Shown: positions 1,761-20,000 of the stretch, in pieces | How positions within the stretch are numbered: position 1 is the stretch's first letter | Layout of the letters: every line of letters begins with the position of its first letter | Source of the DNA: Desulfuromonadaceae bacterium | GTDB lineage: Bacteria > Desulfobacterota > Desulfuromonadia > Desulfuromonadales > Geopsychrobacteraceae | Length of the DNA stretch: 28,479 nucleotides | NCBI GenBank assembly: GCA_013138655.1 | Contig: WTCI01000347.1 | Coordinates: 1-28,479 of the forward strand | Direction: 5' to 3' | The notes under the pieces: generated by a model | Told to the model about the DNA's origin: nothing | Databases searched by the model: none | What the model saw: the letters and a program-made list of their open reading frames with translations, nothing else | Made by a program: the position numbers and the translations under genes

Positions 1761-1806
1761 ATCAGCTCCTCTGAAAAGGGTAGAAAAGAATCTTAATTGG
1801 GCGGAA

Positions 1807-1836: not shown

Positions 1837-1873
1837 GCAGTTGAAAACCAAACCGGTGTTGAGAAGCTTCTAC

Positions 1874-1902: not shown

Positions 1903-1927
1903 GTTGCTGCAGTCAGAACAAAACATG

Positions 1928-2039
1928 ATGGCGTCGCAAGAAGTCCGCCCCCTACGTTACAGTGGTTTTTCAAGATTCTATGTATGCCTTCCCTCCTGAA
2001 AAACACTAAGCCTTGTAGGCGAAATTTTTGCTTAGCCAT
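1928..2039. repeat. Imperfect palindromic repeat, copy 1 (leader of DnaJ-like gene)
   Basis: This 112-bp stretch is a copy of the sequence at 19878-20000. The two share AAGTCCGCCC near the left end, TATGTATGCCTTC in the middle, and CTGAAAAAC, GCCTTGTAGG and CGAAATTTTTGCTTAGCCA at the right. The left half is a diverged reverse complement of the right half, so a transcript could fold into one long hairpin. This copy has a decayed left end (GGCGTCGCAAGAA against GGCTAAGCAAAAA) and lacks roughly 9 nt at the centre. It sits between a good promoter and the start codon. An upstream TTG at 2028 inside the repeat is not a credible gene start. Confidence 0.8.
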
Positions 2040-2078
2040 CTCAAGGTTTTTTGCGAGAGTATCTCAGGAGAATATTTC

Positions 2079-2951
2079 ATGGCCCAGGATTATTATGCCA
2101 CCCTCGGTGTCGAGCGTACTGCCGATGCCGCAACGATAAAGAAAACATACCGCAAGCTGGCACAGAAATACCACCCGGATCGCAACCCGGGGGATAAAAG
2201 TGCCGAAGAGCGTTTCAAGCAGATTACCGAAGCCTATGCCGTCCTCTCAGACCCGGAAAAACGCAGCCAATACGATCAATTCGGCGCCAGCGGCTTCCAC
2301 CAGCGTTTTAGCCGGGAAGATATTTTCCGCAACATGGATTTCGGCGACATTTTCGGGAGTACCGGCGGTGAAGACCTGTTCAGCCAGCTGTTCGGTGGAG
2401 GGCACGGCAGAAGCGCTCAACGCCGGCCGAGCAAAGGGCAGGATTACTCCATGCAGATCAGTATTCCTTTCCGCCTCGCGGTACAGGGAGGGGAGCGGCG
2501 CATCGACTACCGCAGTGACGGCAAAGTTGAGCAGATCAAGGTGCGCATCCCGGCCGGGATCGAAACGGGTACCAAGCTCCGGGTTTCCGGCAAGGGAGGA
2601 GTCAGCCCGAGAGGAGGGGTCACAGGAGACCTGTTCTTACAGGTTGAGGTCGAACCCGACCCGCTTTTCAGTCGCGAGGGGAACGATCTGCTGGTCAGGG
2701 TTGAAATTCCCTTCAGCGGTATTTGTCTCGGGACAACCGCAGAGGTGCCGACTCTTGGCGCCAGCAAACGGGTGAAAGTTCCGCCAGGTTTGCAGCCGGG
2801 ACAAAAAATCAGGCTGCGGGGATTCGGCGTAGCCGCTTCGGGCAGAAGGCCGGCTGGCGACCTCTTTGCCGTCATTGAAGTCGCCGTTCCGAAATCGCTG
2901 ACGGGAGAACAGGAAACATCAATAAAACAACTGCAAGAAACCGGGCTATAA
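2079..2951 (+). CDS. DnaJ-class co-chaperone without zinc finger (CbpA-like)
   Basis: The product (290 residues) is a J-domain co-chaperone that should stimulate the ATPase of DnaK and present unfolded substrates. Residues 1-70 are a J domain with the HPD motif at 32-34 (YHPDRNPGD) and QYDQFG at its end. A Gly/Phe-rich linker with FGDIFG and QLFGGG follows at about 75-110, and then two DnaJ C-terminal beta-barrel subdomains (about 130-285). The four CxxCxGxG zinc motifs of canonical DnaJ are absent, which places it with CbpA/DjlA-like class B proteins; length is close to E. coli CbpA. ATG 2079 is chosen because AGGAG lies 8 nt upstream; the longer frame from TTG 2028 starts inside a repeat. 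It is monocistronic here, with its own promoter and no hspQ/cbpM partner visible. Confidence 0.88.
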   Translation: MAQDYYATLGVERTADAATIKKTYRKLAQKYHPDRNPGDKSAEERFKQITEAYAVLSDPEKRSQYDQFGASGFHQRFSREDIFRNMDFGDIFGSTGGEDLFSQLFGGGHGRSAQRRPSKGQDYSMQISIPFRLAVQGGERRIDYRSDGKVEQIKVRIPAGIETGTKLRVSGKGGVSPRGGVTGDLFLQVEVEPDPLFSREGNDLLVRVEIPFSGICLGTTAEVPTLGASKRVKVPPGLQPGQKIRLRGFGVAASGRRPAGDLFAVIEVAVPKSLTGEQETSIKQLQETGL

Positions 2952-3052
2952 AAGATTTTCTGTATCATATCGCAGGATTTCTGAAGTCCCCGACACGGCC
3001 GCAAAAGTCACTGCCGATTTTCCAGAGATTGTCAACGTAAACGGCATTTCAC

Positions 3053-3082
3053 TTGTGTAAAAAATCACTAACAGGCTATAAT
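3053..3082 (+). promoter_or_regulatory. Putative promoter of the ccs (cytochrome c maturation) genes
   Basis: A perfect TATAAT (3077-3082) lies 18 nt after a poor -35 (TTGTGT, 3053-3058). Transcription would begin near 3089, close to the start of the small exported protein at 3105/3114. The weak -35 could mean an activator is required; this is inference. Confidence 0.45.
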
Positions 3083-3104
3083 TACAAATTCATTTTCAAG
3101 GAAG

Positions 3105-3548
3105 ATGGCTGACGTGGCGGAACGCACCAAGATCAAAAAATTTCTGTTATTGACGGTTCTGATCGGTTTCGTGCTGATCAGCGGCAGCTTGCAGAATACC
3201 TTCGCTTGCCCGACTCAGGTCGAAGATGGCTATCTAACGGTCATCAGGGTCAACAACTGCCACGCGATCACGATAGAACCTGAGGTCATTGCCAGCTGTC
3301 CGAACAGGGCCTGCCATCAGGGGAGCCCGAACCACCAGGATCTCGGTGGACCGGAAATCTACGGTTCATACAAATTCTCCCAACCGTTACTCAACAGCTC
3401 GCGCCAAGCGGAACCTCAGCACCGCCCCGGCGCCATATTTGTGTCACCGTCGGTCGATTTACAATCCTCACTGCCCATCCGCGCAAGCCTCTCAACAACT
3501 TCATACCAAGCCCTTCAGAGTATTCGTACCACTGTCCTGCTGATGTAA
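3105..3548 (+). CDS. Small exported protein of unknown function upstream of resB
   Basis: The family was not recognised. The 147-residue product has a basic N-terminus (RTKIKK), a hydrophobic core (FLLLTVLIGFVLISG, residues 13-27) and a plausible signal peptidase I site after TFA (34), so it should be periplasmic or membrane-anchored. The mature part has four Cys (35, 52, 65, 70), including CPNRACH; there is no CXXCH haem motif. The C-terminal half is rich in Ser, Gln, Pro and Arg. AAGGAAG at 3098-3104 directly abuts ATG 3105 but is 9 nt from an in-frame GTG at 3114, so GTG may be the true start. The gene follows a TATAAT box and precedes resB by about 100 nt, so a role connected to cytochrome or metal chemistry is possible but unproven. 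Confidence 0.5.
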   Translation: MADVAERTKIKKFLLLTVLIGFVLISGSLQNTFACPTQVEDGYLTVIRVNNCHAITIEPEVIASCPNRACHQGSPNHQDLGGPEIYGSYKFSQPLLNSSRQAEPQHRPGAIFVSPSVDLQSSLPIRASLSTTSYQALQSIRTTVLLM

Positions 3549-3649
3549 AATCCTGCTTTCTCTCAGGCTGACGTCGGCCAGCTTTGCTGGTTATAGTGAC
3601 CAAATGTGTCATCTTTTCGGATGACGAGAGATTATAGGAGAATTCTGCT

Positions 3650-5020
3650 TTGACAGAGAAAAAAAATAGCTATATCGACTGCGTTTGGGACTTTTTCTGT
3701 TCCCTGAAACTAACCCTTTTTATCATGCTGTTGCTGGCTCTGCTGTCGATCATCGGGACGGTTCTGCAGCAGAATGCCCCGGCCGAAGAATATATCCGCG
3801 AATACGGCCAGTCCAATTACGAGCTGTTCGTCAATCTGCAGTTCATCGATATGTACCATTCCTGGTGGTTCATCGGTCTGCTGGGGCTGTTCAGCATCAA
3901 CCTGATCTGCTGTTCAATCAAGAATTTCCCGCGGGTCTGGAAATTCGTCAAAGAACCGATGCTGGTCGCCACCCCCGGCACCCTGAAAAATTCAGACAAC
4001 CGCCTTGAAATGAACAGCAAAGAGGAAAAAGAGCAGCTGGCGGAACGCCTCAGCACTTTCCTCGGGAAAGAGTTTGCCAAAACCATCCGTAGCGAAAGCG
4101 ACGGGAAAATTTTTCTCTTTGCGCAAAAGGGAATTTATTCGCGCTTTGGTGCCTATATGACCCACCTGTCGATCCTGATCGTCATGGCCGGCGCCGTTAT
4201 CGGTAACATCTGGGGCTACAAAGCTTACGTCAATATCGCTGAAGGGACTTCGACCAATCGGGTCTGGGCACACTCCGGTCAACTGCCGATCGATCTCGAC
4301 TTCACCGTATATTGTGAAGACTTTGATGTCAGTTATTATCCCGGCGGTAACCGTCCCAAAGATTACAGCAGCAATCTGGTGATCCTCGAAAACGGCAAAG
4401 AGATTCTGCGCAAAAGGATCGAGGTCAACGATCCGCTGACCTATAAAGGGCTTACCTTTTATCAGTCGAGCTATGGTTCCACCGGCAATCCAGTCTTCAA
4501 GGTCAAAGTTACCGTCAACAAAACCGGTGAAGCATTCAACTTCAACGCCCGCCAGGGGGAACATATCAAACTGCCGGACGGCCATGCTTTCGCCGTGACT
4601 AGTTTCACCCTTAACGATCGTAAGTTCGGACCGGCGATGCAGTTGCATGTCAACACCCCCGATGGCAAACGCGGCAGACCCTTTATCGTCTGGAAAAATT
4701 ATCCCGAGATCGATGTCAAGCGGGGCGGTCTTTTCAGCTTTGCCTTAATTGACCATGACGACCCGCAGTATACCGGTCTGCAGGTTGCCAAAGATCCGGG
4801 CGTAGAAATCGTCTGGCTAGGCTGCATCCTGATGGTCTTCGGCTCCCTGACCGCCTTCTTCTTTTCTCACCGGCGACTCTGGGTCTGCCTGGAAGACGAC
4901 GGCGGCAAAACCAAGGTACAGATTGTCGCCAACGCCCACCGGAATCAGCCCGGCTTCTCCCTGGCGTTCGACGACCTGAGCCAGAAGCTGGAAGCAACGA
5001 TTGAAAACAAATCCCAGTGA
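3650..5020 (+). CDS. resB: Cytochrome c biogenesis protein ResB (Ccs1)
   Basis: ResB forms with CcsB/ResC the system II haem exporter and synthetase that attaches haem to apocytochromes c on the outer face of the cytoplasmic membrane. The 456-residue protein has the family layout: transmembrane helices at about 18-41, 72-92 and 165-185, a large extracytoplasmic beta-rich domain (about 190-385), and a last helix near 388-410 followed by a short cytoplasmic tail. Conserved ResB phrases include KLTLFIMLLLALLSIIGT, GRFGAYMTHLSILIV-like text and DPLTYKGLTFYQSSYG. The start is TTG 3650, supported by AGGAG at 3636-3640 with a 9-nt spacer; no in-frame ATG fits. Two small hairpins (CCAGC-TTT-GCTGG at 3578-3590 and GTCATC-loop-GATGAC at 3608-3625) precede it and could modulate read-through. 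It ends 14 nt before ccsB. Confidence 0.9.
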   Translation: MTEKKNSYIDCVWDFFCSLKLTLFIMLLLALLSIIGTVLQQNAPAEEYIREYGQSNYELFVNLQFIDMYHSWWFIGLLGLFSINLICCSIKNFPRVWKFVKEPMLVATPGTLKNSDNRLEMNSKEEKEQLAERLSTFLGKEFAKTIRSESDGKIFLFAQKGIYSRFGAYMTHLSILIVMAGAVIGNIWGYKAYVNIAEGTSTNRVWAHSGQLPIDLDFTVYCEDFDVSYYPGGNRPKDYSSNLVILENGKEILRKRIEVNDPLTYKGLTFYQSSYGSTGNPVFKVKVTVNKTGEAFNFNARQGEHIKLPDGHAFAVTSFTLNDRKFGPAMQLHVNTPDGKRGRPFIVWKNYPEIDVKRGGLFSFALIDHDDPQYTGLQVAKDPGVEIVWLGCILMVFGSLTAFFFSHRRLWVCLEDDGGKTKVQIVANAHRNQPGFSLAFDDLSQKLEATIENKSQ

Positions 5021-6251: not shown

Positions 6252-7697
6252 TTATTTGCGCCAGAAGGATGGGAAGAAGAGAACCAGCACGGTAAAGAGT
6301 TCCAGGCGTCCCATCAGCATGCAGATAATCAAAACCGTTTTCCCGAAGCTCGGGATATGCGCAAAATTGTCAACCGGGCCGACCGTTCCCAGTCCGGGTC
6401 CGATATTCGCCAGGCAGGCGATCACCGCCGCGCCTCCGGAGATCAGGTCCATGCCGCAGGCTGCCATCAGCAGTGAGGCGATGACGAATATCCCGATGAA
6501 AAGAGCAAAGAAGCCGAGGATCGATTGCAGCACTTCCTTGTCGACGGGGCGGTTACCAAGTTTGACCAGGCGGATGGCACGCGGATGGATCAGGCGGAAA
6601 ACCTGAACCTGGGCATGTTTGAGCAAAAGTAATATTCTGGCAACCTTCATGCCGCCGCCGGTTGAGCCGGCACAACCGCCGACAAACATCAACATGACCA
6701 ACAGATATTGTGGCAGGATCGGCCAGGTCTCATAGTCGGCGGTACCGAAACCGGTGGTGGTGCTAATTGACGCCACCTGAAACATGGAGTAGCGCAGGTT
6801 TTCACCCGGGGTCTGGTAAATACCGCCGAACCAGTTGAAGGTGATGATGATCAGTGTGATGATGAAAATCAGACCGATATAGCAGCGAAACTCTTCGTTA
6901 CGATAAAAATCTTCCAACTTCCCGCGTAACAGCTGAAAGTGCAGGGTGAAATTGATCCCGGCAAGAATCATGAAAATGGTGACAACCATATCGATATAGC
7001 TGCTGTCGAAAGCCGCGATGGAGGCATTGCGCGTTGAAAAACCGCCAGTTGCCAAGGTCGCGAACGAGTGACAGAGCGCATCGAAAAAATTCATGTCGCC
7101 GAGCATCAGCAACAAGGTTTCCAGCGCAGTCAGCAGCAGGTAAACACCCCAGAGTAATTTAGCCGTATCCTGGATTCGCGGTCTCAGGCGATCAGCCGTT
7201 GGCCCGGGGACTTCCGCTTTAAACAGCTGCATCCCGCCGACGCCCAGCATCGGCAGAATCGCCAAGGACAGGACAATGATTCCCATGCCGCCGAGCCATT
7301 GCGTCAATGAGCGCCAGAACAGCAGGCTTTCCGGCAAAGTTTCAATGTCGGTCAGGATGGTTGAGCCGGTGGTGGTGAACCCGCTCATGGTTTCGAAAAT
7401 GGCATCGATTGGCGCGGGGATGACCCCTGACAACAAATATGGCAAGGCACCGAAGATGGCAAAGAATGTCCAGCCGAAAGTGACGATGGCAAACCCTTCG
7501 CGAACCGAAAGGTCTTTGGGGCTTTTGCAGAAGGTGAATAGCAGGCCGCCGACACTGAAGCAGAGCAGGGATGAATAAATAAAAGCGGGCCAGGCTTCAT
7601 CGTGATAGTAGAGGGAAAAAAGCACCGGCAACAGCAGGGCCCCACCAAGATAGAGGAGCAGAGCCCCGAGTATCCGCAGCGTCAGAATGAGGTTCAT
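6252..7697 (-). CDS. trkH: Potassium uptake channel subunit TrkH
   Basis: TrkH is the membrane-embedded K+-translocating subunit of the Trk system, gated by TrkA. The 481-residue protein has four M1-P-M2 repeats. The filter-loop glycines are visible as ETMSGFTTTGST (first), ATLATGGFST (second), ASISTTTGFG (third) and CLANIGPGLGTVGP (fourth), with hydrophobic helices flanking each. The N-terminal D0 domain (two helices, residues 1-65) identifies TrkH rather than the shorter KtrB. The ATG directly follows the trkA stop with no spacer and no clear Shine-Dalgarno sequence, so translation is probably coupled to trkA. The two proteins together form the complete functional system. Confidence 0.93.
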   Translation of the reverse strand: MNLILTLRILGALLLYLGGALLLPVLFSLYYHDEAWPAFIYSSLLCFSVGGLLFTFCKSPKDLSVREGFAIVTFGWTFFAIFGALPYLLSGVIPAPIDAIFETMSGFTTTGSTILTDIETLPESLLFWRSLTQWLGGMGIIVLSLAILPMLGVGGMQLFKAEVPGPTADRLRPRIQDTAKLLWGVYLLLTALETLLLMLGDMNFFDALCHSFATLATGGFSTRNASIAAFDSSYIDMVVTIFMILAGINFTLHFQLLRGKLEDFYRNEEFRCYIGLIFIITLIIITFNWFGGIYQTPGENLRYSMFQVASISTTTGFGTADYETWPILPQYLLVMLMFVGGCAGSTGGGMKVARILLLLKHAQVQVFRLIHPRAIRLVKLGNRPVDKEVLQSILGFFALFIGIFVIASLLMAACGMDLISGGAAVIACLANIGPGLGTVGPVDNFAHIPSFGKTVLIICMLMGRLELFTVLVLFFPSFWRK

Positions 7698-9050
7698 TCA
7701 GGCAAAAAACCTTTCGACTTTCTGTAGGGATTCCGGCAGGGAGAAAATAACGACCCGGTCCCCTTCGGCCAGCTCGCTTGTTCCGGTCGGGATTTCGAAG
7801 GAAGATCCATGGACAATGGCGCCGATGATGGCACCACGCGGGAAGTGTAATTTGCTTAACGGTGTCGCCGTCAGGCCACTATCCCCCTTGATTTCGAACT
7901 CGAGAACTTCTGAATTACTCCCTTCAACCGCCGTCAAGGAGATGATCTCACCACGACGGACAAATTTCAGGATTGCGCCGGCCGCTGCCATGCGCGGTGA
8001 AACACAGGCATCGATTCCCAGGTCAGCCGCGAGGCCAAGCAGTTCCGGTTGACTGACCAGCGCCAGGGTCCGGCGAACCGAATGCTGCTTTGCCAACAGG
8101 CAGGTGAGGATATTTGTCTGATCGTTTCCGGTGACGGCGATGAAAACATCCGCATCTTCCAGCCCTTCATCAAGCAGGGTCTGGACATCCAACCCTTCGG
8201 CGTTAATGACGACCGTTTTGTTCAGCTGTTCTGCCAGCTTATAGCAGTGACTCTCACTTTTTTCGATCAGTTTGGTGTTGAATTCCAGATTTTCCATGCT
8301 TTGCGCCACTTGTGCACCGATGCGGCTACCGCCGAGTATGAACGCTCGGTGGGTGGGTTTATCGTCTTTTTTTTCTGACTGAAGGAGATAGTTGATTGCC
8401 GGCAGTTCGTTTTTATGAGCAAAAACGTAGATCCTGTCACCGGCCTGGATACAATCGTCACCACGCGGGATAATGGTGTCGTTGCCGCGGTTGATGGCGA
8501 CGACGACAAACCGGTAAATGCCGCGTAATTCGCCCAGTTCAGCAAGGGTCAGATCACAGATTGGGCTTTCCGGGGGGATGCGAAGTCCTTGAAAGAGGAT
8601 CTGTCCCTCGGCAAATTCCGCAACATCGAAGGCCTGTGAATTGCAGGCCAGTTTGCAAAGTTCTTCGGCCACGGCATCTTCAGGATTGATCAGCAGATCG
8701 ATGCCGAGTTTTTCTTTGGAAAGAATTGCTTTGTTGTCGGTGTACTCGATACTTTTCGTTCTGGCAATGCGGGTTTTAACCTGGTATTCACGCGCCAGCA
8801 GACAGGCGAGGATATTGACTTCATCCATATTGGTGGCGGCAATGAAGATATCAGTCTCTTTGATCCCCGCTTGTTCAAGGATTTCAGCACTGGCGCCATT
8901 GCCGGTTACGCCGAGAACATTCAGCCGATCCTGAACCCGCTCAATGGTTTCCTCGTCCTGATCGACCAAGGTGACGGCGTGCCCTTCACGGGAGAGACGG
9001 TCGCAAAGAAAGTAGCCGACCTGCCCGGCCCCAACTATAAGGATTTTCAT
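7698..9050 (-). CDS. trkA: Trk system regulatory subunit TrkA
   Basis: TrkA is the cytoplasmic nucleotide-binding ring that gates TrkH. The 450 residues form two tandem RCK units. Residues 1-120 are a Rossmann fold with GAGQVG at 7-12 and an acidic residue after strand 2 (TLVDQDEET), followed by an RCK-C domain to about 220. A second Rossmann fold starts near 233 with AFILGGSRIG, followed by another RCK-C domain. The full tandem length is the TrkA type, against about 220 residues for KtrA. It is first in the trkA-trkH unit. The ribosome-binding site is weak (AAGAG 12 nt upstream). The gene diverges from the HNH gene across a 115-nt AT-rich gap with no clearly matched promoter. Confidence 0.93.
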   Translation of the reverse strand: MKILIVGAGQVGYFLCDRLSREGHAVTLVDQDEETIERVQDRLNVLGVTGNGASAEILEQAGIKETDIFIAATNMDEVNILACLLAREYQVKTRIARTKSIEYTDNKAILSKEKLGIDLLINPEDAVAEELCKLACNSQAFDVAEFAEGQILFQGLRIPPESPICDLTLAELGELRGIYRFVVVAINRGNDTIIPRGDDCIQAGDRIYVFAHKNELPAINYLLQSEKKDDKPTHRAFILGGSRIGAQVAQSMENLEFNTKLIEKSESHCYKLAEQLNKTVVINAEGLDVQTLLDEGLEDADVFIAVTGNDQTNILTCLLAKQHSVRRTLALVSQPELLGLAADLGIDACVSPRMAAAGAILKFVRRGEIISLTAVEGSNSEVLEFEIKGDSGLTATPLSKLHFPRGAIIGAIVHGSSFEIPTGTSELAEGDRVVIFSLPESLQKVERFFA

Positions 9051-9510: not shown

Positions 9511-12500
9511 TCAGAGCGCCGGCATTTGTCGGTAGCCACGAGCCTTGAGGTAGAGTTCTTGATACTGAAGGGCAGAGTTGCCCCAGCTGAAATCCTGGCT
9601 CATGCCCCGTTTGACCAGGGCCAGCCAGCGACTGCGCTCTGGGTAGATGGTCAGCGCCCGGTCGATTGACGAGAGTAATTGATCCGCCGAAAAATCGTCA
9701 AAAACAAAACCGTAACCCTGTCTCGGGTTTTTGTCGGCATCAATCACCGTATCCGCCAGTCCGCCGGTCTTGCGGATCACCGGCAAAGCACCATATTGCA
9801 GGGCAATCATCTGGGTCAGCCCGCAAGGTTCGTATAAACTGGGAATCAGCAGGATGTCACTGGCGGCGTAAATTCTTCGCGAGAGGCCTTCGTCAAAAGT
9901 CAGGTTGATCGAAACCTGTTGCGGCCGCTGTTTCTGCTGCTCCCGCCAGAACGTCATGGCTTCACGATCACCGGAACCGAGCAGGATAAACTGGATGTCC
10001 CGTTCCAGGAGTTGTGGCCAGATCTGTTTGATCAGGTCGATGCCTTTCTGCCGATCGAGACGACTGATGACTGAGATGATCGGGATGTCATGACGGATTT
10101 CCAGCCCTAATTCCTTTTGCAGCAGCCGTTTGCAGGCCCGTTTGCCTTTCAGGTTGTTAACATTGAAGGGTGTCGGCAGGGCTGTGTCGAGGGCCGGATC
10201 CCAGGAACGACGATCCAGACCATTGACGATCCCGTGCAGATCTTCGGCACGATCACGCAAAATACCGTCAAAGCCGTGCCCCTGCTCCGGAGTTTGGATT
10301 TCCCGGCAATAAGTGGGGGATACCGTATTGATGACATCGGCGTAATTGATCCCGCCTTTGAGGATTGACAAATTGCCGAAATACTCCATCCCCCGGGAGG
10401 TTCCCAACGACTCCGGCAAATTCAACTGCGGTAACATATCCAGGGGAAAGATCCCCTGATAGCCGAGATTATGAATTGTCAGCAGTGTCGCAATATTGCC
10501 GTAGAAAGGATCATGGCGAAACTCGGTACGGAGCAGTACGGGAATCAGGCTTGTTTGCCAGTCGTGCACGTGGATGACATCGGGCCTGAAATCGAGCCGC
10601 CTGGTCATCTCCAGAACTGCCCGGCAAAAAAATCCGAAACGCAAGCTGTTGTCGGGGTAATCCCCTTCCGCTGTGCCATAGAGTGGATCCCGGTCGAAAA
10701 ATTCCGGGCAATCGATAAACCAGAAGGGTATCCCATCATAACTGGTCTGCTTTAAACTTCCCCGGTAGTTTTTCCCGGAGATGGTGATTTCGATACTTTT
10801 TCGTCCTTTTTTCAGTTTGATACCGCTGCGTTCTGCAGTGCGATAACAGGGCAGGACGACCCGAACATCGTGGCCGAGTTGCCTTAACGCACGCGGCAGT
10901 GAACCGGCCACATCGGCAAGACCACCAGTTTTGGCAAAGGGAGTCGCTTCAGAGGTGATAAAGAGAATTTTCATTGCGTGATCGCCTCCAGTTGCCGGGG
11001 GAAGTACCGGACCTGGTTCCGCTGCCGCGTCGAGACGACACAAGAAATTGTCCACTTGAAAGCCGAACTTTTCCGCCAGTCGTTCCACTCTGGAAAAAGC
11101 GCTCAGAGTGTAGCACGTTGAGATAAGTAACTGATTGAAATTATATGATTTGTTTTTGTTCAGAGAAAAAACTATGTATTGTAAAAATGTTGTCAGCAGG
11201 CGGGCAAAAGCCTCCTTGTTGAACCAATCCTGTTCTTTGTAATAATTGCACTTCAGGAGATATCGCCACTCATGCCGGTTAAATAACCGATCGAAAAGTT
11301 GATACATTTCTGCTTGATTCAACGGCAGAGTATTGATCAGTAATTCGTCAAGTTCTTCGATCAGCGCAACGGGCAGAACCGTTTTTTCAGCAGCGTGGCT
11401 ACTGAGTTGCAGTTGCAGGTAGGACGCTGTGCTATGTTGACTGATAGCTGCTGAAGAAAACTCTCCACAGAGCTGCTCCAAGAGCTTTGCCACTTGCTCT
11501 CTGGCTCTGGCCGGGCGGGTTATCTCTCTTAATTTTTGACCGAGCTTACGGGCCGGTTCCAGCAACAGGCCAAGGTAATCAAGTTGCAGGTCAGGCCGAC
11601 CGGAATCCCCGTATCTTCCCCAGAGTTGTTGCCAGCGACCGTCAGCGTCGGTCACCGTGTGGAAATCACTCAGAACACGGTAACTGTATGGCTGAAGAAC
11701 CAGTCGGCCGCCATTTAGCAGCTGGGAAATCGGTTGCAGATGCTGAACGCGATGGCTCAGATCGGTCATCAGCAGAAAATCGCCGTTCATCTCAAAGTTG
11801 CAAGCCTGAATAAATTCATCAGCCTTTTTGTCGGCTCTTTCCTGTGCTGCACCAATCCGTCCGGAAATCTGCTGTGCTGAATTGTTGCAAAGAATTAAAA
11901 CTCTTTTCTCTGCCAACCGATTACTGTAAACGAAAACGTTCTGTTCTACGCCATAATCGGAAACAAAGTCGTACAGTTGAAATTCTTCGGCGCCGCTGAA
12001 AAGGGCTCTTCTGCGCAGCAGGGGGAAGATCTCCCGTCGATGTCGCTCAACCAGTTGCTGATCGACCTCTTCGTGCTGGCGTGGAGCCAGGTATTCCATG
12101 CCGTACTTTTCGGAGTAGCCTTCAATCTGGCCGTGTCCGAACATCGGCAATCCCGGCATGGTGACCAGCATGGTGGCAATGCAAAAATATTTGTCATCTT
12201 TGCCGAACTGTTCAACCGCCGGCTTTTCATCCGGGTTGCTCATGAAATTGACAAACCGCTGCAGGATGGCCGGATCGAAGGCCAGAATATTTTTCAGGGT
12301 TTGGCGGTATTTTTCATTTTCTTCCCGCTTCAACATATTCATGAAGGCGCTGTTGTAAACCCGGTGCATTCCTAAGGTTCTGACGAAATAGCCTTCCATC
12401 AACCAGAAAGCTTCTGCAACCAGCAAGGTATCTGGCGCTTCGTCACGGATTCGATCAACCAGTTCACGCCAGAACTCGACAGGAAAGAGTTTCTGGAACT

Positions 12501-14154
12501 CTTCCTGGGGCATGGCATGATCCGCCCGCGATGGGACCCCGGCCCCACCGCCCGGCAGCGGGTACCAGAGGCGCTGAAAATGCCGTTTGGCCAGAGTCAT
12601 GGCGGCATCAAAGCGGATCACCCGAAAACGTTTGGCCGCTCGAATAACCAGTTGAATCATGGCCTCCCGCACCTCCGGCAGGAGAAAATTAAGCTGTGCC
12701 GTATCATTCCAGGGCAGGTGCGTGCCGTCATTGCCATGATAAAGATGGCGCACTTCCCCGCTCCGGCGATGCTGATAACGACAGACCACGGCCGCCTCGC
12801 TATGGTCATAGTACCCGTCTTCAATCTGGATGGAATATTCGGGGTTTTCGCTTAAGTCAGGGCCGGTAAAGCGGTATCCTGGATACGGCGGCTGGGAGGT
12901 CTGGATAAACCAGTCCGGGTGTTCGTACAGCCAGGCTGATTCGATGCCGGTGTGATTGGTGACCACATCACACGCCAGGTCGATACCCGCTTTCCGGCAA
13001 CGTTGGCGAAGATTTTCCAGGGCCGGGTCGCCGCCTAAGTCATCAGCAATCCGGTAGTCATCAATGGCATAGGCCGAGGCGGCAACCTGTAGCTGACCGC
13101 ACAGGTTCTTGATTTTCAATGAGGCTTTGGAGCGTTGCCAGATGCCGATCAGCCAGAGGCTGGTAAAGCCTTGTTCGGCCAGTTCTGCAAGTTCTTCGTC
13201 AGGGATCTGGTCAAGCCGCTCAATCTGCCGCCGGTATTTAACAGAAAGCTGCCGCAGCCAGACATAGGTGGATTTTGCCAACAGAACCGTGCGGGGCATC
13301 CAGTCAAGATCGACAGTGAAATTGGCATATTCCTGATCGGAAAAAAATGCCGGGTCAAAGGTGATGGTTTCCGGTTCGCCGGGGAATCCGAGCTTAAATC
13401 CTTCCCGGTCATGGATGGCAAACGCCCCGGCAATCGCAGCCTGTAGCTCGTCGGGGAGCAGGCCTGCCCAGGTTTGCTGTAAAAGCCGTAGCTGGGAATG
13501 CAGAGAATCTGCTTGTTGTAATGGCTCCAGGAGCCGTGCCAGCAGGGAGTCGCTCCTGTGTCCAGAGCCGTCATCAAGGTCCGGCAGAGTGCGGTCAATC
13601 CAGGAAAGTTGCTGTTGATAGCGACAACCCTGTTGCAGCTGTTGCTCTTCCGAGAGAAACAATCCCCGGGCAGATTGGAGCGCCGGGTTCTGGCTTTGCA
13701 CACGGAGAAGAAATATTTCCAGGAGCAGTTCATTGAGCTGATCAGTCTGCTCCAGTGATTCGAGCAATCGGGCACTCGCTGTTTTTGCCAGCTCAATCGG
13801 CAGGGCCGGAAATAGCTGGAGAAAATGTTGTAACAGGCTCTCCAGCTCAGGGAGCGGGGTTGTCTTGCCGGCTAATGTTAACCGGTCACGGTAAACGCGG
13901 CAGTTTCTGCTCTGTAGAAACTGCCGACCGACCGTTAACAGGATCCGGTTGATGATTGCCAGCAACTCCAGTTCTGCTGCGGTTAAGTTGCTGTCCGCCT
14001 GATGACGGAGCTGATCGGCAATTAATTGCCGCAGGTAGGTGCGGCCGGGCGGCGGATCTTTCCGGAACTGCGCAGTTAAGTCCAGCTGGTGCCAGAAGCT
14101 TCGGCCGATATGAAAACCGAGCGGAAAATGTTTGTTGCGAAAAGTTTCAGTCAT
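9511..14154 (-). CDS. glgA: GH13 alpha-amylase domain fused to GT5 glycogen synthase (GlgA)
   Basis: One uninterrupted frame joins a glucan-acting GH13 domain to a complete ADP-glucose-type glycogen synthase. Numbering from the longest start (ATG at 14184, 1557 residues): 1-300 helical, unassigned; 300-790 GH13 barrel with DVVTNH (406-411), nucleophile Asp526 in RFDAAM, acid/base Glu591 in VAEAFW and Asp652 in NFMSNPDE, so the triad is intact; 850-1055 helical, unassigned; 1055-1068 Ala/Pro/Gly linker; 1071-1557 GlgA with KTGGL (1085-1089), VHDWQ (1206), IVNGLD (1319) and SLYEPCGLTQ (1449). No signal peptide or membrane helix is seen, so it is cytoplasmic. ATG 14154 lies 4 nt after the upstream stop and was preferred to ATG 14184, which overlaps that gene by 26 nt; both have weak ribosome-binding sites. 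The GlgA part may also be made alone from ATG 10974. Confidence 0.88.
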   Translation of the reverse strand: MTETFRNKHFPLGFHIGRSFWHQLDLTAQFRKDPPPGRTYLRQLIADQLRHQADSNLTAAELELLAIINRILLTVGRQFLQSRNCRVYRDRLTLAGKTTPLPELESLLQHFLQLFPALPIELAKTASARLLESLEQTDQLNELLLEIFLLRVQSQNPALQSARGLFLSEEQQLQQGCRYQQQLSWIDRTLPDLDDGSGHRSDSLLARLLEPLQQADSLHSQLRLLQQTWAGLLPDELQAAIAGAFAIHDREGFKLGFPGEPETITFDPAFFSDQEYANFTVDLDWMPRTVLLAKSTYVWLRQLSVKYRRQIERLDQIPDEELAELAEQGFTSLWLIGIWQRSKASLKIKNLCGQLQVAASAYAIDDYRIADDLGGDPALENLRQRCRKAGIDLACDVVTNHTGIESAWLYEHPDWFIQTSQPPYPGYRFTGPDLSENPEYSIQIEDGYYDHSEAAVVCRYQHRRSGEVRHLYHGNDGTHLPWNDTAQLNFLLPEVREAMIQLVIRAAKRFRVIRFDAAMTLAKRHFQRLWYPLPGGGAGVPSRADHAMPQEEFQKLFPVEFWRELVDRIRDEAPDTLLVAEAFWLMEGYFVRTLGMHRVYNSAFMNMLKREENEKYRQTLKNILAFDPAILQRFVNFMSNPDEKPAVEQFGKDDKYFCIATMLVTMPGLPMFGHGQIEGYSEKYGMEYLAPRQHEEVDQQLVERHRREIFPLLRRRALFSGAEEFQLYDFVSDYGVEQNVFVYSNRLAEKRVLILCNNSAQQISGRIGAAQERADKKADEFIQACNFEMNGDFLLMTDLSHRVQHLQPISQLLNGGRLVLQPYSYRVLSDFHTVTDADGRWQQLWGRYGDSGRPDLQLDYLGLLLEPARKLGQKLREITRPARAREQVAKLLEQLCGEFSSAAISQHSTASYLQLQLSSHAAEKTVLPVALIEELDELLINTLPLNQAEMYQLFDRLFNRHEWRYLLKCNYYKEQDWFNKEAFARLLTTFLQYIVFSLNKNKSYNFNQLLISTCYTLSAFSRVERLAEKFGFQVDNFLCRLDAAAEPGPVLPPATGGDHAMKILFITSEATPFAKTGGLADVAGSLPRALRQLGHDVRVVLPCYRTAERSGIKLKKGRKSIEITISGKNYRGSLKQTSYDGIPFWFIDCPEFFDRDPLYGTAEGDYPDNSLRFGFFCRAVLEMTRRLDFRPDVIHVHDWQTSLIPVLLRTEFRHDPFYGNIATLLTIHNLGYQGIFPLDMLPQLNLPESLGTSRGMEYFGNLSILKGGINYADVINTVSPTYCREIQTPEQGHGFDGILRDRAEDLHGIVNGLDRRSWDPALDTALPTPFNVNNLKGKRACKRLLQKELGLEIRHDIPIISVISRLDRQKGIDLIKQIWPQLLERDIQFILLGSGDREAMTFWREQQKQRPQQVSINLTFDEGLSRRIYAASDILLIPSLYEPCGLTQMIALQYGALPVIRKTGGLADTVIDADKNPRQGYGFVFDDFSADQLLSSIDRALTIYPERSRWLALVKRGMSQDFSWGNSALQYQELYLKARGYRQMPAL
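10985..10989 (-). promoter_or_regulatory. Internal Shine-Dalgarno sequence before the GlgA domain
   Basis: On the minus strand GGAGG lies 10 nt before the in-frame ATG at 10974, whose first residues (MKILFITSEATPFAKTGG) are exactly where free-standing GlgA proteins begin. A separate 487-residue synthase could therefore be translated from within the fusion gene. The spacing is slightly long; the match could also be chance in Gly/Gly-Asp codons. Confidence 0.4.
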
Positions 14155-14158
14155 TGTC

Positions 14159-15199
14159 TCAAAGTATCGCTGTTGGCTCGGCATTACGCAAAAACTCTGC
14201 GGCTTCTTCCGGTGGAGTTGGATTCATGTGGAAGCCTGTCCCCCACTCAAAACCTGCAACATTGGTTAATTTCGGGGCAATCTCAATGTGCCAATGATAG
14301 TCCGATGGCAGGGAAGCCCAATAATCGGGGCGCCCCCAGCGTAGATGCATCGGCGGGGCGCTGTGCAGGATGAAGGAGAAGGGCGGATCACGGAGACTGG
14401 CACGCAGGCGACCCAGGGTCTCGCGGAGGGTGTCGGCCAGCAGCAACAGTTGCTGATCGGTTTGCAGGGTAAAATCATGGCTGTGCTCGAGCGGAGCAAC
14501 CATCAGCTCAAAGGGAAAACTGGAAGCAAAGGGTGCATAGACGAGGAAGTTTCCGTCATCATGAACCACTCTGTCTCTGGTTTGCCGCTCCTGATCGAGC
14601 AGGTCACAGATCAGACAGCGTTCCTTACGTTGAAAATGTTCCCGGCAGGTTGCCAGCTCAGTCGCTACCAGCGGCGGAATCAGTGGAACGGCGATCAATT
14701 GAGAATGGGAATGGGGCACATTGGCAGACGCTTCAATGCCGAAATTTTTAAAAACAAATATGTAGCGAAAACGGCTGTCCTTACGCAGATCCAGCATCCG
14801 GGTGCGGTATGCTTTCAGGACCTCGCTCAGTTCTTCGACCGTTAAGTCCGCCATGGCTTTGTGATGATCCGGATGTTCGATCACCACCTCGTGGGCGCCG
14901 ATCCCGTTCATCCGGTCGTAAAGTCCCTCCGCCCTGTTCTCCAGGTCGCCCTCAATGCGCAATGCCGGGAATCTGTTGGGAATCACCCGAACCTGCCAGC
15001 CCGGTTGATTTGCCTGACTGTTGTTTGGTCGATGAGCATAAATTTCCGGCGGGGTTTTTCCCTCATTGCCGGTGCAGAACGGGCAGGCGGTCATTTCTAG
15101 TTTGCGGCGCTGTTGTAAAAAGTCCTGCGGCCGGCGACCACGTCCCTTGGTGATAATGACCCAGTTGTTTTTCAGCGGGTCCCAACGTAATTCAGACAC
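14159..15199 (-). CDS. galT: GalT-family hexose-1-phosphate nucleotidylyltransferase
   Basis: GalT-family enzymes move a nucleotidyl group between sugar phosphates through a histidine intermediate. The 346-residue protein has the complete two-half fold: CPFC (39-42) and CLIC (195-198) as candidate zinc ligands, FKNFGIEASANVPHSHSQ with the active-site H163-S-H165-S-Q167, and the second HIT-like motif YHWHIEIAPK (301-310). Classical GalT carries HPHPQ or HPHxQ; the HSHSQ variant is, as I recall, also that of plant ADP-glucose phosphorylase in the same family, which would suit a glucan operon. Substrate is therefore uncertain (galactose-1-P/UDP-glucose, or glucose-1-P with an ADP/UDP-sugar). It begins 20 nt after the GH57 stop and ends 4 nt before the ATG of the GH13-GlgA fusion. 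Confidence 0.87.
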   Translation of the reverse strand: MSELRWDPLKNNWVIITKGRGRRPQDFLQQRRKLEMTACPFCTGNEGKTPPEIYAHRPNNSQANQPGWQVRVIPNRFPALRIEGDLENRAEGLYDRMNGIGAHEVVIEHPDHHKAMADLTVEELSEVLKAYRTRMLDLRKDSRFRYIFVFKNFGIEASANVPHSHSQLIAVPLIPPLVATELATCREHFQRKERCLICDLLDQERQTRDRVVHDDGNFLVYAPFASSFPFELMVAPLEHSHDFTLQTDQQLLLLADTLRETLGRLRASLRDPPFSFILHSAPPMHLRWGRPDYWASLPSDYHWHIEIAPKLTNVAGFEWGTGFHMNPTPPEEAAEFLRNAEPTAIL

Positions 15200-15219: not shown

Positions 15220-17334
15220 TTATACCGACCAGTTCTCTTCATCCAGCAACGGGCCGCGATAACGGAAACTGGCACTTCCTTCTGTGGGCCAGTGTCCGTT
15301 TTCCCGTTCCCCTACAATAGCATGACAGCTCAAATGGAGTGTTTCTTCTGGCTGCAGTTCAAAGGGTTGCAGCGGAACGGCCAATTCCAGAATCTGTCCA
15401 CAGGCGGCTTTCCCGATGGCGAGTTCCCTCCCCTCGGCAAGTAGAACCAGGGATTGTTCGCCCGGATTGTAGATCAGGTGGAAAAGTTTTTTGGCGGAAA
15501 TGCGTACTTCGAAATAACCATCCGGGCTGCAGAGTCGTTCTAGTAGCTCTGGCTGGTCAAGGCGAAAATAGAGGCACTGCCGGTCATAACCATAATGAAT
15601 TGTCTGCAGACTTTCCCGGTTGGCGTACATGGCACCCCCTGCCGCCAGATCAATCTGCCCGGCGGCCAGCCATTCAAAATAATCTCCGATGCGGCCGTCG
15701 ATCTGCGGGGTGACACAAGCGCTCGGCTCAACCCCTTTGATCATGATTGTGGGTGGTTTAATCCATTGATGCAGGCGGGCCGGGACGGTCAGCCCTTTCT
15801 GATGGTAGAGAACTTCGAGATGCAGGCGAAACAGGCGATCAAAGATATCGGCCTGCGCCGTCACATGCTCATCGCCAAACCACCAGAACCAGTCACTGCC
15901 TTCGGCACGCAACAGCTCGCGAACCAGCTCGGACAATGGCTGCTCCGGATTCTTGAGTGCCAGTTGAATCTCACTGCCGATAATTTCCGCGCGGGTTTGT
16001 TGCAGCAGTTCCCAGGCCAGGTTTTCTTCCGGGTGGCCGATCCAGGTGGTGAAGTCAGACCTGATCCAGGATCCGGCGGCCAGCCGATCAAGGCGTAGCG
16101 GCTGACTGGTGGCAATGGCGTCCCGGATCGTCATCATCTCCAGTTGCGGATCGTCTTGCAGCATCTGATAAAGATTGCGTAAAAACGGGTAGCCGTTATC
16201 CGGGTAGCGCTCCCAGCAATTCTCGCCATCAAGAATGATGGCTGCGGTTCCGCCGGGAGCCAGGCGGGCGATCTTATGCAGTCGTTTTCGGATATCCTTA
16301 ATTGCTTCACCCGTCTCCCAGCCGGCATAGAGGAAGCCGATCCGGTCAGAGATTTCGCGGTCGCGGAAGAGCAGGGGTAACTGGTTATACTGGTAGATCT
16401 GATAAAGTTGACCTCGATTCTGTAGCCCCTCAGCGAGACTGCGGGCGAGGATATCTTCATCTGTTGCTGCCCAGAGCGCTCCTTCCTCGCGCAGCAGGTC
16501 AGCTGCTATTTCGCTGACGGCCCCTTCTGCCGGCCACATGCCGCGAGCTCGTTTGCCAAGAATCCGATCCGCTGTCGCCAGCCCTTCGCGGATCTGGAGT
16601 CTGGCATCCTCGGGATGGCGAAAGTCAGCAGCTGGAAGCGGCAGGCCGGGAGTCGGGTTCTGGGCAATGCGCAGATCGCAAAGTAGCGGCAGAATCGGGT
16701 GTGCATAGGGAGTGACGGAGATTTCAATCTGTTGTTGCTCTTCCAGTTGGCGATGCAGATCAATCACCCGCTTGACCTCGGTATGGCAAACCTCGAACAA
16801 CTGTTGTTTCTGCACCTCGGTAAAATTGTCACCTTGTTGTAAGAGAGCTGAGATAATTGGAGATTTACGGCGCAGATGGGAGCCGGTCCAGGCCAGCAGG
16901 AACCAGACCTGCAAATCCCGTAGATCCTGATCACTGAAATGGCTGGCGTCTGCGGGCTGACCAGCGTTGCGCATTCGGTAGAGTTGATGATAGCGACGGT
17001 TGGGCAGAATCTGAGTTTCTTCATTGACAGAGAAAAACTGCTCAACGATAAATTGTCGCTCGTTTTCTGTCAATTGCGCCGGATTTTGTGTTGCCAGCAG
17101 CAGCCAGCGATCCTGGTCTCTGTCGTCGGCATAGCGTTCCAGTTGTTCCAGGAGCGTCGGCACCAGGTTGACTGTGACCCGGGCCCCGGCTTCGGCGATC
17201 GTCTCAAGCATCTCGCCATAATCCTTGACGCCATGCAGCCAGGTCCAGGGAAGCAAGGTTCGGCCGCTGACCGGATCCCGATAGTCGGGCTGGTGCATGT
17301 GCCAGAGGATGCAGACCTTCAGTGGCGTTTTCAT
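15220..17334 (-). CDS. GH57 amylopullulanase-like glycoside hydrolase
   Basis: GH57 enzymes cleave or transfer alpha-1,4 or alpha-1,6 glucan bonds with retention. In this 704-residue protein the five conserved GH57 regions can be followed: HMHQPDY (12-18), YAHPILPLL (210-218), GMWPAEGAVSE with likely nucleophile Glu270, IILDGENCWE with likely acid/base Asp369, and GSWIRSDFTTWIG with EEN (421-438). The last two patterns resemble the amylopullulanase subgroup more than branching enzymes. Residues from about 530 to the end look like a beta-rich C-terminal domain. There is no signal peptide, so it works in the cytoplasm on storage glucan or maltodextrin. Its ATG overlaps the TGA of the upstream nucleotidyltransferase gene (ATGA, 17331-17334), showing tight operon coupling. 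Debranching versus alpha-amylase activity cannot be decided from the sequence. Confidence 0.87.
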   Translation of the reverse strand: MKTPLKVCILWHMHQPDYRDPVSGRTLLPWTWLHGVKDYGEMLETIAEAGARVTVNLVPTLLEQLERYADDRDQDRWLLLATQNPAQLTENERQFIVEQFFSVNEETQILPNRRYHQLYRMRNAGQPADASHFSDQDLRDLQVWFLLAWTGSHLRRKSPIISALLQQGDNFTEVQKQQLFEVCHTEVKRVIDLHRQLEEQQQIEISVTPYAHPILPLLCDLRIAQNPTPGLPLPAADFRHPEDARLQIREGLATADRILGKRARGMWPAEGAVSEIAADLLREEGALWAATDEDILARSLAEGLQNRGQLYQIYQYNQLPLLFRDREISDRIGFLYAGWETGEAIKDIRKRLHKIARLAPGGTAAIILDGENCWERYPDNGYPFLRNLYQMLQDDPQLEMMTIRDAIATSQPLRLDRLAAGSWIRSDFTTWIGHPEENLAWELLQQTRAEIIGSEIQLALKNPEQPLSELVRELLRAEGSDWFWWFGDEHVTAQADIFDRLFRLHLEVLYHQKGLTVPARLHQWIKPPTIMIKGVEPSACVTPQIDGRIGDYFEWLAAGQIDLAAGGAMYANRESLQTIHYGYDRQCLYFRLDQPELLERLCSPDGYFEVRISAKKLFHLIYNPGEQSLVLLAEGRELAIGKAACGQILELAVPLQPFELQPEETLHLSCHAIVGERENGHWPTEGSASFRYRGPLLDEENWSV

Positions 17335-19850
17335 GCCGGGTTGTTGAGCAGGGTCAACCAGTGGTGCACTTTTTCACGGTATTCCTGCAGCAGGGCATCG
17401 GCCTGTTCTGCTTTTCCGGCTTCCGTCAGGATATGGACTAGCGGACGATAGGGATCGGGGACCACCTGCACCCAGTCGTCGCCGAAATGGACTTTGACGC
17501 CATCAATACAGGTGGTCTGCAGGTCAAGGGTCGCTTCATTCATCAGTCGCATAACTCCCCCCTTGCATTCCCAGCTGCAGGGGAGTTGAATTTTGCGGTA
17601 TGGCCGTTGGGGAAGACTCTGGCGCAAATCCGCCAGGGTCTTTTCTGACCGGACCAGCAGTTCCAGAGACTTGGCGATCGCGAAAAGGGCATCAAAGTGT
17701 GGCTGGAAACTGGTAAAGGCGATCCGTCCTTCCATGTCTCCAACCAACTGGACCCCCTTGTCAGTCGCCGCGACCCCGAGCGAGCGGCCATCCCCTTTGC
17801 CGCGGAGAATCTGGATGCGCTGTTCCCGGGTGATTTCCTCAAGCGTGTGTGGTGCAGAGATCGGAACAGCAATAGCTCCCTCTTTGCGTGTTTTTGAAAT
17901 CAGGGCAGTCATAAGTGTCAGTGTTTCTGCTTCAGAAATTGGCTGGCCCGTGCTGTCAAGATAGATTGCCTGTTCTCCGGAAGGGCCGAGCCAGAACCCG
18001 GCCGTGGCGTCAAGAGCTGTGACAATTGTTCCTATGCGGGTCAAGGTCTCGGCCTGGTCTTCCATCCGGGAGGGGAGACGGTTATCATCGACGTGGGCGT
18101 TCAGCTCGATCATTTCACAGCCGAGTTCGTTTAACAGATCGGGGAGCAGAGCAGCAGCCGGGGAGTGGTTAAGATCGATGACAACTTTCGGTTTGGCTTT
18201 GCGGATAATATCGCGATCCAGGGCTCGCAAAAAGCCCTCCCGATAATAATTGTTGATATGTGGAAGTTCTGTGATGATTCCGGGTTCATTGAAATGAACC
18301 CGGCGGAAATTTTCTTTATAGAAGATCCGCTCGATGGCTTTGGCCACTGCCGAGGAGAGTTCCATCCCCCGCTCGTCGAAAAAGACGATTTCCGTTGCCG
18401 CGGAGTCGCGCGGCGATTGCCGGAAATGCACCCCGCCGACCTCGCCGAAGGTGGTCAGTTTGTAGCGCAAGACCGGCAACGGCAGGCGCTTGACGTCACG
18501 AACATTGATTCCGGCTGAAAGCAGCCCGCCGACAAAGGCCCGTTTCAGCATGCGTGATGAACGAACGGCGTCGCGGGCCGTCAGGACGTAAGACTCTTTT
18601 GGGAGGGTGGAACCATAGGCGGCACCGAGTTTGGCGGCAAACTCCGGCGTCAGTTCGATATTGGTCAAGCCTCTGACCAAAGCTCCTTCGAAGAGGCTCT
18701 TGCGCCAGGTTTCTCCCCAGATCAGGTTGCTGGTAACAATCGAGTTGTTTTCGACAATTTTATTCGGCCAGATTTTAACATCGGCATTGATTTTGGCATC
18801 GCGGCCGATCTTGGAATTGTCGCCGATGACCACACCAGGTAAAATACTTGCACCGACGCCGACCCGGACATTCTGCCCCAGCACGGCTCCGTTGATCCGA
18901 GCATTGGCCTTGATGTAAACATTGTCCCAGAGAACAGCATCTTCAAGTTCCGCTCCGTCTTCGACGACACAGTTGCGGCCGATGATACAGTTTTTCAGTT
19001 TCGGCAGGCCGACCAGGCGGGTATTATCCCCGAGCACAACCATGCCTTTAAGATTCGATAGATTGTCGGGGCTGACCACCGCTTCGGCCCCAAGGTAGAG
19101 CCCTTTATGGGTGTAGGCAGGTTTTTCTTCGAGATTGACGGCAACTTTTTCCGCCAGAATATCCTTGCTGGTTTCCAGGTAGGCATCGCTGTTGCCGATA
19201 TCCTGCCAATAGCCCTTCAGGGTGCAGCCGAAGAGGCGATCCTTTTGTTTGAGCATCAGCGGAAAAATATCCTTTGACCAGTCACGGTTTTCACCTGCGG
19301 GGATCAGGTCGAGAACCTCCGGTTCGAGAATGTAGATGCCGGTGTTGATGGTGTCGGAAAAGACCTCTCCCCAGTCAGGTTTTTCGAGGAACTGGGTGAT
19401 TTGTCCCGCCCGATTGGTGATGACGACGCCGAACTGCAGCGGGTCGGCAACCGAGGTCAGTGTCAGGGTCGCTTGCGCCTGGTTTTCCTCATGGAACTTG
19501 ATGGCACTGCTCAAGTCGAAATCGGTGAGCAGATCGCCGCTGATAATCATGAAACGTTCATCCAGATGACGGGCCGCTGCTTTTACGGCACCGGCTGTCC
19601 CCAGGTCTTCGAGTGGGGTCACGTAGGTGATATTGATACCGTACTCACTGCCGTCACCAAAAAACTGTTTGATCGTCTCCGGTTGAAAATAAAGCAGCAT
19701 GATCAGTTCGGTGATGCCGTGTTTTTTCAGCAGGTCGACAGTATGCAGCATGATCGGCTGGTTGCAGAGGGGAACCATCGGCTTCGGGGTGTTGATCGAG
19801 AGGGGGTGCAGGCGGGTTCCGAATCCACCGGCCATGATGACAGCTTTCAT
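17331..19850 (-). CDS. Sugar-nucleotidyltransferase / hexapeptide / degenerate phosphomannomutase fusion
   Basis: The 839-residue protein begins with a nucleotidyltransferase domain (about 1-235): signature GGFGTRLHPLS (8-18), TPKPMVPL, GDLLTDFD and EKPDWGEVF. This is the ManC/GMPP/RfbA fold that makes NDP-sugars from hexose-1-phosphates. Left-handed hexapeptide repeats follow (about 250-380), then a phosphohexomutase-shaped region (about 385-835). That region keeps the fold (ARDAVRSSRMLKRAFVGGLLSAGINV) but every active-site motif is altered: HFRQSPRDS for TASHNP, LDATAGFW for DGDGDR, GDMEGR for GEESGH, VPDPYRP for RPSGTEP. It is probably inactive as a mutase and perhaps regulatory. It is first in the glucan operon and could supply the sugar nucleotide, although it is not GlgC-like. 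ATG 19850 has AGGAG 5 nt upstream; the longer frame from 19967 runs through a repeat. Confidence 0.86.
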   Translation of the reverse strand: MKAVIMAGGFGTRLHPLSINTPKPMVPLCNQPIMLHTVDLLKKHGITELIMLLYFQPETIKQFFGDGSEYGINITYVTPLEDLGTAGAVKAAARHLDERFMIISGDLLTDFDLSSAIKFHEENQAQATLTLTSVADPLQFGVVITNRAGQITQFLEKPDWGEVFSDTINTGIYILEPEVLDLIPAGENRDWSKDIFPLMLKQKDRLFGCTLKGYWQDIGNSDAYLETSKDILAEKVAVNLEEKPAYTHKGLYLGAEAVVSPDNLSNLKGMVVLGDNTRLVGLPKLKNCIIGRNCVVEDGAELEDAVLWDNVYIKANARINGAVLGQNVRVGVGASILPGVVIGDNSKIGRDAKINADVKIWPNKIVENNSIVTSNLIWGETWRKSLFEGALVRGLTNIELTPEFAAKLGAAYGSTLPKESYVLTARDAVRSSRMLKRAFVGGLLSAGINVRDVKRLPLPVLRYKLTTFGEVGGVHFRQSPRDSAATEIVFFDERGMELSSAVAKAIERIFYKENFRRVHFNEPGIITELPHINNYYREGFLRALDRDIIRKAKPKVVIDLNHSPAAALLPDLLNELGCEMIELNAHVDDNRLPSRMEDQAETLTRIGTIVTALDATAGFWLGPSGEQAIYLDSTGQPISEAETLTLMTALISKTRKEGAIAVPISAPHTLEEITREQRIQILRGKGDGRSLGVAATDKGVQLVGDMEGRIAFTSFQPHFDALFAIAKSLELLVRSEKTLADLRQSLPQRPYRKIQLPCSWECKGGVMRLMNEATLDLQTTCIDGVKVHFGDDWVQVVPDPYRPLVHILTEAGKAEQADALLQEYREKVHHWLTLLNNPA

Positions 19851-19877
19851 CGCATCTCCTAGGTCAGGACAGTTTTG

Positions 19878-20000
19878 ATGGCTAAGCAAAAAGTCCGCCC
19901 TCCGGCGTTGCAGCAGTTTTCCAGGATCTCGACATACATATGTATGCCTTCGCCCCTGAAAAACCACTACGCCTTGTAGGTCGAAATTTTTGCTTAGCCA
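19878..20000. repeat. Imperfect palindromic repeat, copy 2 (leader of glucan operon)
   Basis: This 123-bp element has perfect 14-bp terminal inverted repeats, TGGCTAAGCAAAAA (19879-19892) and its complement TTTTTGCTTAGCCA (19987-20000). The core is a palindrome, CATACATATGTATG. Between ends and core the two halves are partial complements, so it folds as one long imperfect hairpin. It is the fuller copy of the element at 1928-2039. It ends 28 bp before the first start codon of the glucan operon. No open frame of its own was seen, and no clear target-site duplication. Confidence 0.85.

Follow-up and report, generated by a model that had tools for sequence, protein, structure and literature searches.

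What does an alpha-amylase-type enzyme do when it is built into the same polypeptide chain as a glycogen synthase? The question is raised by a single gene in a 28,479-nucleotide stretch of DNA (hereafter, the window) from a Desulfuromonadaceae bacterium of the order Desulfuromonadales (contig WTCI01000347.1, assembly GCA_013138655.1), which encodes an N-terminal unit of glycoside hydrolase family 13 (GH13) joined to the glycogen synthase GlgA of glycosyltransferase family 5 (GT5). Comparison of this gene with its relatives, and of gene content across the order and the phylum, leads us to propose that the product is a bifunctional glycogen-building enzyme in which the GH13 unit takes the place of the branching enzyme GlgB; we put the probability of this reading at roughly 0.48.

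A conserved fusion of a GH13 unit with glycogen synthase

The gene occupies positions 9511-14184 on the minus strand as an uninterrupted frame of 1557 codons, read without a stop from the first ATG, whereas the plus strand in the same coordinates and frame contains many stops. A preliminary description, made from the sequence alone, had reported a continuous GH13-GT5 frame at exactly these positions, and this stands. The true start is probably Met11 (ATG at 14154), because the nearest relatives begin there, giving a product of 1547 amino acids; with this start, the gene no longer overlaps the upstream GalT-like gene by 26 bases. In Pfam searches, the product matched GH13 (PF00128) at residues 333-693 (E 8e-12) and GT5 at residues 1072-1310. 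The synthase part (residues 1071-1557; 9514-10974, minus strand) matches the NCBIfam glgA model TIGR02095 over residues 1071-1547 with 567.7 bits, well above the curated cut-off of 328.45, and the solved structures 3d1j and 2qzs at E about 1e-100, in agreement with the earlier description of a full-length GlgA beginning at residue 1071. Thus, the C-terminal 487 residues correspond to GlgA, from which the protein differs by about 1060 extra N-terminal residues, and the two parts are connected by a linker (residues 1056-1070; 10975-11019, minus strand; sequence ...AAAEPGPVLPPATGGDHA). No window of 19 residues in the fusion product reaches a hydropathy of 1.6, so no transmembrane segment is predicted and, as previously suggested, the protein looks cytoplasmic.

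Among the 120 homologues listed, of 6356 found with the fusion as the query, 79 cover 96-100% of its entire length at 50-93% identity, and 119 of the 136 genomes of the order match it. We read 78 loci of the order; these, together with the window and a locus of Geobacter argillaceus (L031) and minus two others (L139 and L141), form a sorted set of 78 loci, of which 31 are fused, 45 are split and 2 have no GlgA on the contig. In the family of the window, all 20 loci of the sorted set (the window included) are fused, the other 19 having been chosen for their longer matches out of 40 further matching genomes of the family; one more genome of this family, outside the sorted set (G077), has a break in the frame within its GH13 part. 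Fusion is also found in four further lineages (f18 with f15 and f2; genus g19 of f3; f21; and f9). Outside the family of the window, the order mostly has the two genes adjacent and separate within one operon. In the 43 intact split loci, the position of the glgA start ranges from 4 bases before the GH13 gene ends to 222 bases beyond it; 16 of the 43 have both genes in the same reading frame. The remaining two split loci are L031, where the genes lie apart, and L094, with stops inside the GH13 part. The latter, the sole locus read from family f4 (genome G024), has two in-frame TAG codons, and its remainder is in frame with GlgA; these codons may reflect decay, an error, or TAG being read as an amino acid.

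That two ordinary genes were joined by a missed stop or a frameshift is conceivable given that other families have them adjacent and sometimes even in the same frame, but neither the 20 loci of the same family nor the fused loci of the four further lineages contain a stop. Together with the full-length homologues, this leaves a local artefact with a vanishingly small probability, and chance fusion or an assembly error is excluded. The database search and the conservation check that the preliminary description had called for thus both favor a genuine fusion, close relatives carrying one gene rather than two.

The fused and split states have alternated repeatedly. On trees of the concatenated proteins, 5 changes were counted both with 75 rows (4 forced by well-supported branches) and with 48 rows (3 forced); the 48-row trees of GlgA and of the GH13 unit taken separately gave 5 changes (2 forced) and 6 changes (4 forced), respectively. 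The change counts alone do not separate gain from loss of the fusion, but the split state is that of both the outgroup and the next branch.

The GH13 unit belongs to a widespread stand-alone family

The GH13 unit consists of three parts, all on the minus strand: an N-terminal helical domain (residues 11-295; 13300-14154), the GH13 catalytic barrel with its C-domain (residues 296-843; 11656-13299) and a C-terminal helical domain (residues 844-1055; 11020-11655). The N-terminal domain was modeled with a predicted local distance difference test (pLDDT) score of 90.6 and a predicted template modeling (pTM) score of 0.85, and had no clear match among solved structures in the PDB. The helical regions 1-300 and 850-1055, which had previously been left unassigned, can now be placed in the GH13 unit, given that both are also present in stand-alone members, the second being much less conserved.

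In the predicted structure, the GH13 fold spans residues 282-843, and both the barrel and the Asp/Glu/Asp triad of GH13 (the alpha-amylase family) are present. The triad comprises the predicted nucleophile Asp526 in the motif RFDAAM (12607-12609, minus strand), the predicted acid/base Glu591 in AEAFW (12412-12414, minus strand) and the predicted transition-state stabilizer Asp652, which follows Pro651 in NPDE (12229-12234 for both residues, minus strand). Each of the three triad residues is identical in 80 of 80 related loci, and the preliminary description had placed the intact triad correctly; these loci were collected with the patterns EAFWLME and EKYGMEY, and the surroundings of Glu591 are thus partly selected. 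The fourth conserved sequence region (CSR-IV) reads NPD rather than NHD in all 80 loci, with Pro replacing the His of most GH13 subfamilies. According to PMC11239784, NHD is typical of CSR-IV in GH13, not obligatory. At the end of CSR-V, where GH13_48 enzymes have L-[DN], L498 is found in 74 of the 80 loci and N or D at position 499 in all 80; this would agree with GH13_48, but the borders of the regions were set by hand and CSR-IV is different.

A scan of named genomes showed that the GH13 unit is encoded in at least 557 stretches; the details that follow refer to the best 80 of these. They include records titled Geobacter, Treponema, Chloroflexi, Hydrogenedentota, Zixibacteria, Krumholzibacteria and Bacteroidetes. 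One such record, a contig titled Chloroflexi bacterium (C2.bin.19), carries at 1751-4126 (L002) a GH13 unit 95% identical to that of the window; the same coordinates recur in G078, which belongs to the same genus as the source of the window, and the Chloroflexi title looks wrong. GlgA is in the same frame as the unit in five of the best 80 (L003-L006 and L018), directly downstream in nine (L008-L014, L027 and L040) and nearby upstream in L031; in the remainder, it is weak (L042 and L078) or was not found, some of these stretches ending at a contig edge. Among 92 flanking proteins, mostly those of members without an adjacent GlgA, no Pfam family occurred more than 3 times, and the sole glucan family among the 25 flanking Pfam families listed was GH77, beside three Treponema members. 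Judging from these sequences, the unit is an uncharacterised GH13 group that stands alone in many phyla. A literature search, which did not extend to most subscription journals, brought up no account of either the fusion or this group.

The GH13 unit and GlgB rarely share a genome

The genome from which the window derives (93% complete) encodes GlgC, GlgP and MalQ; we detected in it no CBM48 protein, GlgX-type or other, and no match to the GlgB model TIGR01515. In a sample of 88 genomes of the order with a completeness of at least 90%, where GlgB was defined as a TIGR01515 match over the cut-off, the unit is present in 67 genomes and GlgB in 15: 3 genomes have both, 12 GlgB only, 64 the unit only and 9 neither (Fisher p 5e-7; all p-values given here for this comparison ignore kinship). 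Put differently, GlgB occurs in 3 of the 67 genomes with the unit compared to 12 of the 21 without it. Counted by genus, the strict table gives 3 with both, 28 with the unit only, 6 with GlgB only and 5 with neither (p 0.005), whereas with five GlgB-like proteins under the cut-off (open frames of 596-682 amino acids) counted in, the numbers become 8, 23, 6 and 5 (p 0.14). The same avoidance is seen across 296 genomes sampled from the phylum, where 4 of the 42 unit-bearing genomes belong to the same order: GlgB over the cut-off was found in 150 genomes, together with the unit in only 3 (p 2e-10), that is, in 3 of 42 genomes with the unit against 147 of 254 without it.

The 80 genomes matched by the fusion query break down into 67 with the unit, 11 with GlgB only and 2 (G093 and G094) with neither. 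GH57 was not found in the latter two either, so they may make an unbranched glucan or have some other means of branching it; in G093 (L139), GlgA adjoins the nucleotidyltransferase/mutase fusion described below, with no GH13 unit.

The distribution of the other glucan-active enzymes bears on how the tasks are divided. Taking a GH57 match with E below 1e-35 as strong, and defining GlgX-type proteins by open-frame length and match shape (plus one truncated protein), we found that 2 of the 88 genomes encode both, 46 GH57 only, 19 GlgX only and 21 neither; among the 67 unit-bearing genomes, the respective counts are 1, 37, 18 and 11. An NCBIfam check of 6 of the 21 GlgX-type proteins placed five over the GlgX cut-off, and the sixth, in G051, which is cut by a contig end, scored 585.8 against 640.9. 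This mutual exclusion of strong GH57 and GlgX suggests that GH57 covers debranching and that branching is left to the unit. The simplest assignment, then, is that the unit or GlgB provides branching and GH57 or GlgX debranching, a task that may fall to the GH57 enzyme of the window (15220-17334). A related GH57 protein (35% identity) is encoded in the GlgB-type glycogen operon of a genome of family f7 (G034, L172). Family f3 is especially informative: all 13 of its genomes have the unit, 12 have a GlgX-type enzyme, only 1 has GlgB, and none has a GH57 match at E 1e-10 or better. In 12 of these genomes, with neither GH57 nor GlgB, no branching candidate other than the unit was seen.

Possible branching by the GH13 unit and the alternatives

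From gene content, the odds that the GH13 unit is a branching enzyme appear about even. The C-terminal GlgA would lengthen alpha-1,4 chains from ADP-glucose, and the GH13 unit, presumed to be an active retaining enzyme, would work on these nascent chains, cutting an alpha-1,4 chain by means of Asp526 and Glu591 and reattaching the segment through an alpha-1,6 linkage. The new branches would provide new chain ends for GlgA, and repeated joining of the two genes in evolution would keep elongation and branching together, possibly channelling chains between them. The preliminary description had proposed that the GH13 part might prime, transfer or trim chains while GT5 extends them; the pairing of a GH13 enzyme with a GT5 synthase is retained, but the list of activities was too open, because gene content points to the branching step.

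Alternatively, the unit might act on alpha-1,4 bonds, as a transferase or a hydrolase, and thereby set chain length or prime synthesis, with branches made by the GH57 enzyme of the operon or by something else. The nearest folds of the GH13 unit model include maltogenic amylases and neopullulanases, a GH57 enzyme is indeed encoded in the same operon, and PMC11046441 raises the possibility that GH57 amylases are the branching enzymes still missing from archaea. Nevertheless, we consider this unlikely: all the f3 genomes have the unit without GH57 and, in 12 of 13, without GlgB; the GH57 branching-enzyme C-domain PF09210 was detected in 0 of the 88 genomes of the order by a search that was positive in 3 of 14 control genomes; alpha-1,4 transfer could already be supplied by the GH77 (MalQ-type) enzyme present in 79 of the 88; and the avoidance of GlgB would be left unexplained. 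Considerably less probable is that the unit breaks or debranches glycogen at alpha-1,6 bonds, so that the fusion couples synthesis to remodelling. The window's own genome, which has no GlgX-type or other CBM48 enzyme, leaves that role vacant unless GH57 fills it, but 12 of the 13 f3 genomes have a GlgX-type enzyme alongside the unit (both proteins checked, from G015 and G016, scored over the GlgX cut-off), and it is GlgB, not GlgX, that the unit avoids. A GlgE-like transferase with a sugar-1-phosphate donor seems the most improbable of these three activities. GlgE, a maltosyltransferase, forms subfamily GH13_3; with a threshold of E 0.001, the unit's protein gave 6 matches in Pfam and 20 in NCBIfam, none of them a GlgE family, the likeness is not significant by sequence, and none of the six operon-region proteins scanned matched trehalose synthase or maltokinase.

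With GlgB (GH13_9), the unit shares the GH13 fold, the triad and, apparently, the slot in gene content, but it differs in having no CBM48, TIGR01515 or PF02806 match, in the NPD of CSR-IV and in its own helical N-terminal domain. The GH13_48 maltogenic amylases 4gkl and 3dhu have 422 and 449 amino acids compared to about 1050 in the unit, match it in sequence mostly around CSR-I, and have NHD where the unit has NPD (PMC11239784). A synthase and a GH13 enzyme also share one polypeptide in the glgA-glgB fusion of Criblamydiaceae and Waddliaceae, the branching domain of which is reported inactive in PMC11046441; there, the partner is GlgB, whereas here it is a different GH13 group, N-terminal and with the triad intact.

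In the fungal alpha-1,3-glucan synthases Ags1/Mok1, GH13 is likewise followed by GT5 in one chain. The preliminary description drew on these for comparison, but they are not the nearest one: the unit represents a family that is common on its own, as seen from the number of stretches that encode it, and in related genomes glgA comes immediately after its gene; moreover, by hydropathy, the protein described here has no membrane segment, and its GT5 part is an ordinary GlgA.

The glycogen operon and its surroundings

Across the loci of the order, the operon follows the order nucleotidyltransferase/phosphohexomutase fusion - (GH57) - (GalT-like) - GH13 unit - GlgA - (TrkA - TrkH), with GH57 present in part of the families, the GalT-like gene in many and TrkA/TrkH often; several stretches end at contig edges. 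In the window, all these genes are on the minus strand. The GalT-like nucleotidyltransferase (14159-15199) has as its best solved relative 1z84 (E 5e-63), which we take to be the plant protein At5g18200, an ADP-glucose phosphorylase; by this analogy, it would fit ADP-glucose control in the operon. It is followed, in the upstream direction, by the GH57 enzyme (15220-17334) and by an 878-amino-acid fusion of a nucleotidyltransferase, a left-handed helix and a phosphohexomutase (17331-19967), the nearest solved structures of which are guanylyl/uridylyl transferases and phosphohexomutases. This sugar-1-phosphate nucleotidyltransferase/mutase fusion stands beside the GH13-GlgA pair in many loci, despite the separate GlgC in the genome.

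Downstream of the fusion gene are TrkA (7698-9050) and TrkH (6252-7697), which also follow glgA in other genomes of the order; the recurrence of these potassium-uptake genes in many loci makes for a curious and persistent association with glycogen genes. Elsewhere in the window, there is an integrase-core (rve) open frame of 203 amino acids (25763-26374, plus strand) and a 321-amino-acid frame (27500-28465, minus strand), open to the window edge, which matches only the C-terminal domains of arginine decarboxylase.

Implications

Branching enzymes are held to form two groups, GH13 of the GlgB type and GH57, and a review (PMC11046441) notes that one glycogen-bearing archaeal group shows neither, suggesting an undiscovered enzyme. 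For branching, the GH13 group described here offers a tangible candidate that can be cloned: it avoids GlgB in the phylum sample, its gene belongs to the glycogen operon, and it has been fused to the synthase repeatedly. Tentatively, and with somewhat less than even odds, it would represent a third kind of branching enzyme besides the two known groups: an NPD-type GH13 group with its own helical N-terminal domain that replaces GlgB across Desulfuromonadales-type bacteria, and perhaps in other phyla, and that was joined to glycogen synthase several times, yielding a one-chain maker of branched glycogen. If the unit does branch, the natural synthase-branching fusion would be usable for designed alpha-glucans, and many of these bacteria would have complete glycogen pathways where a look at GlgB alone suggests a gap.

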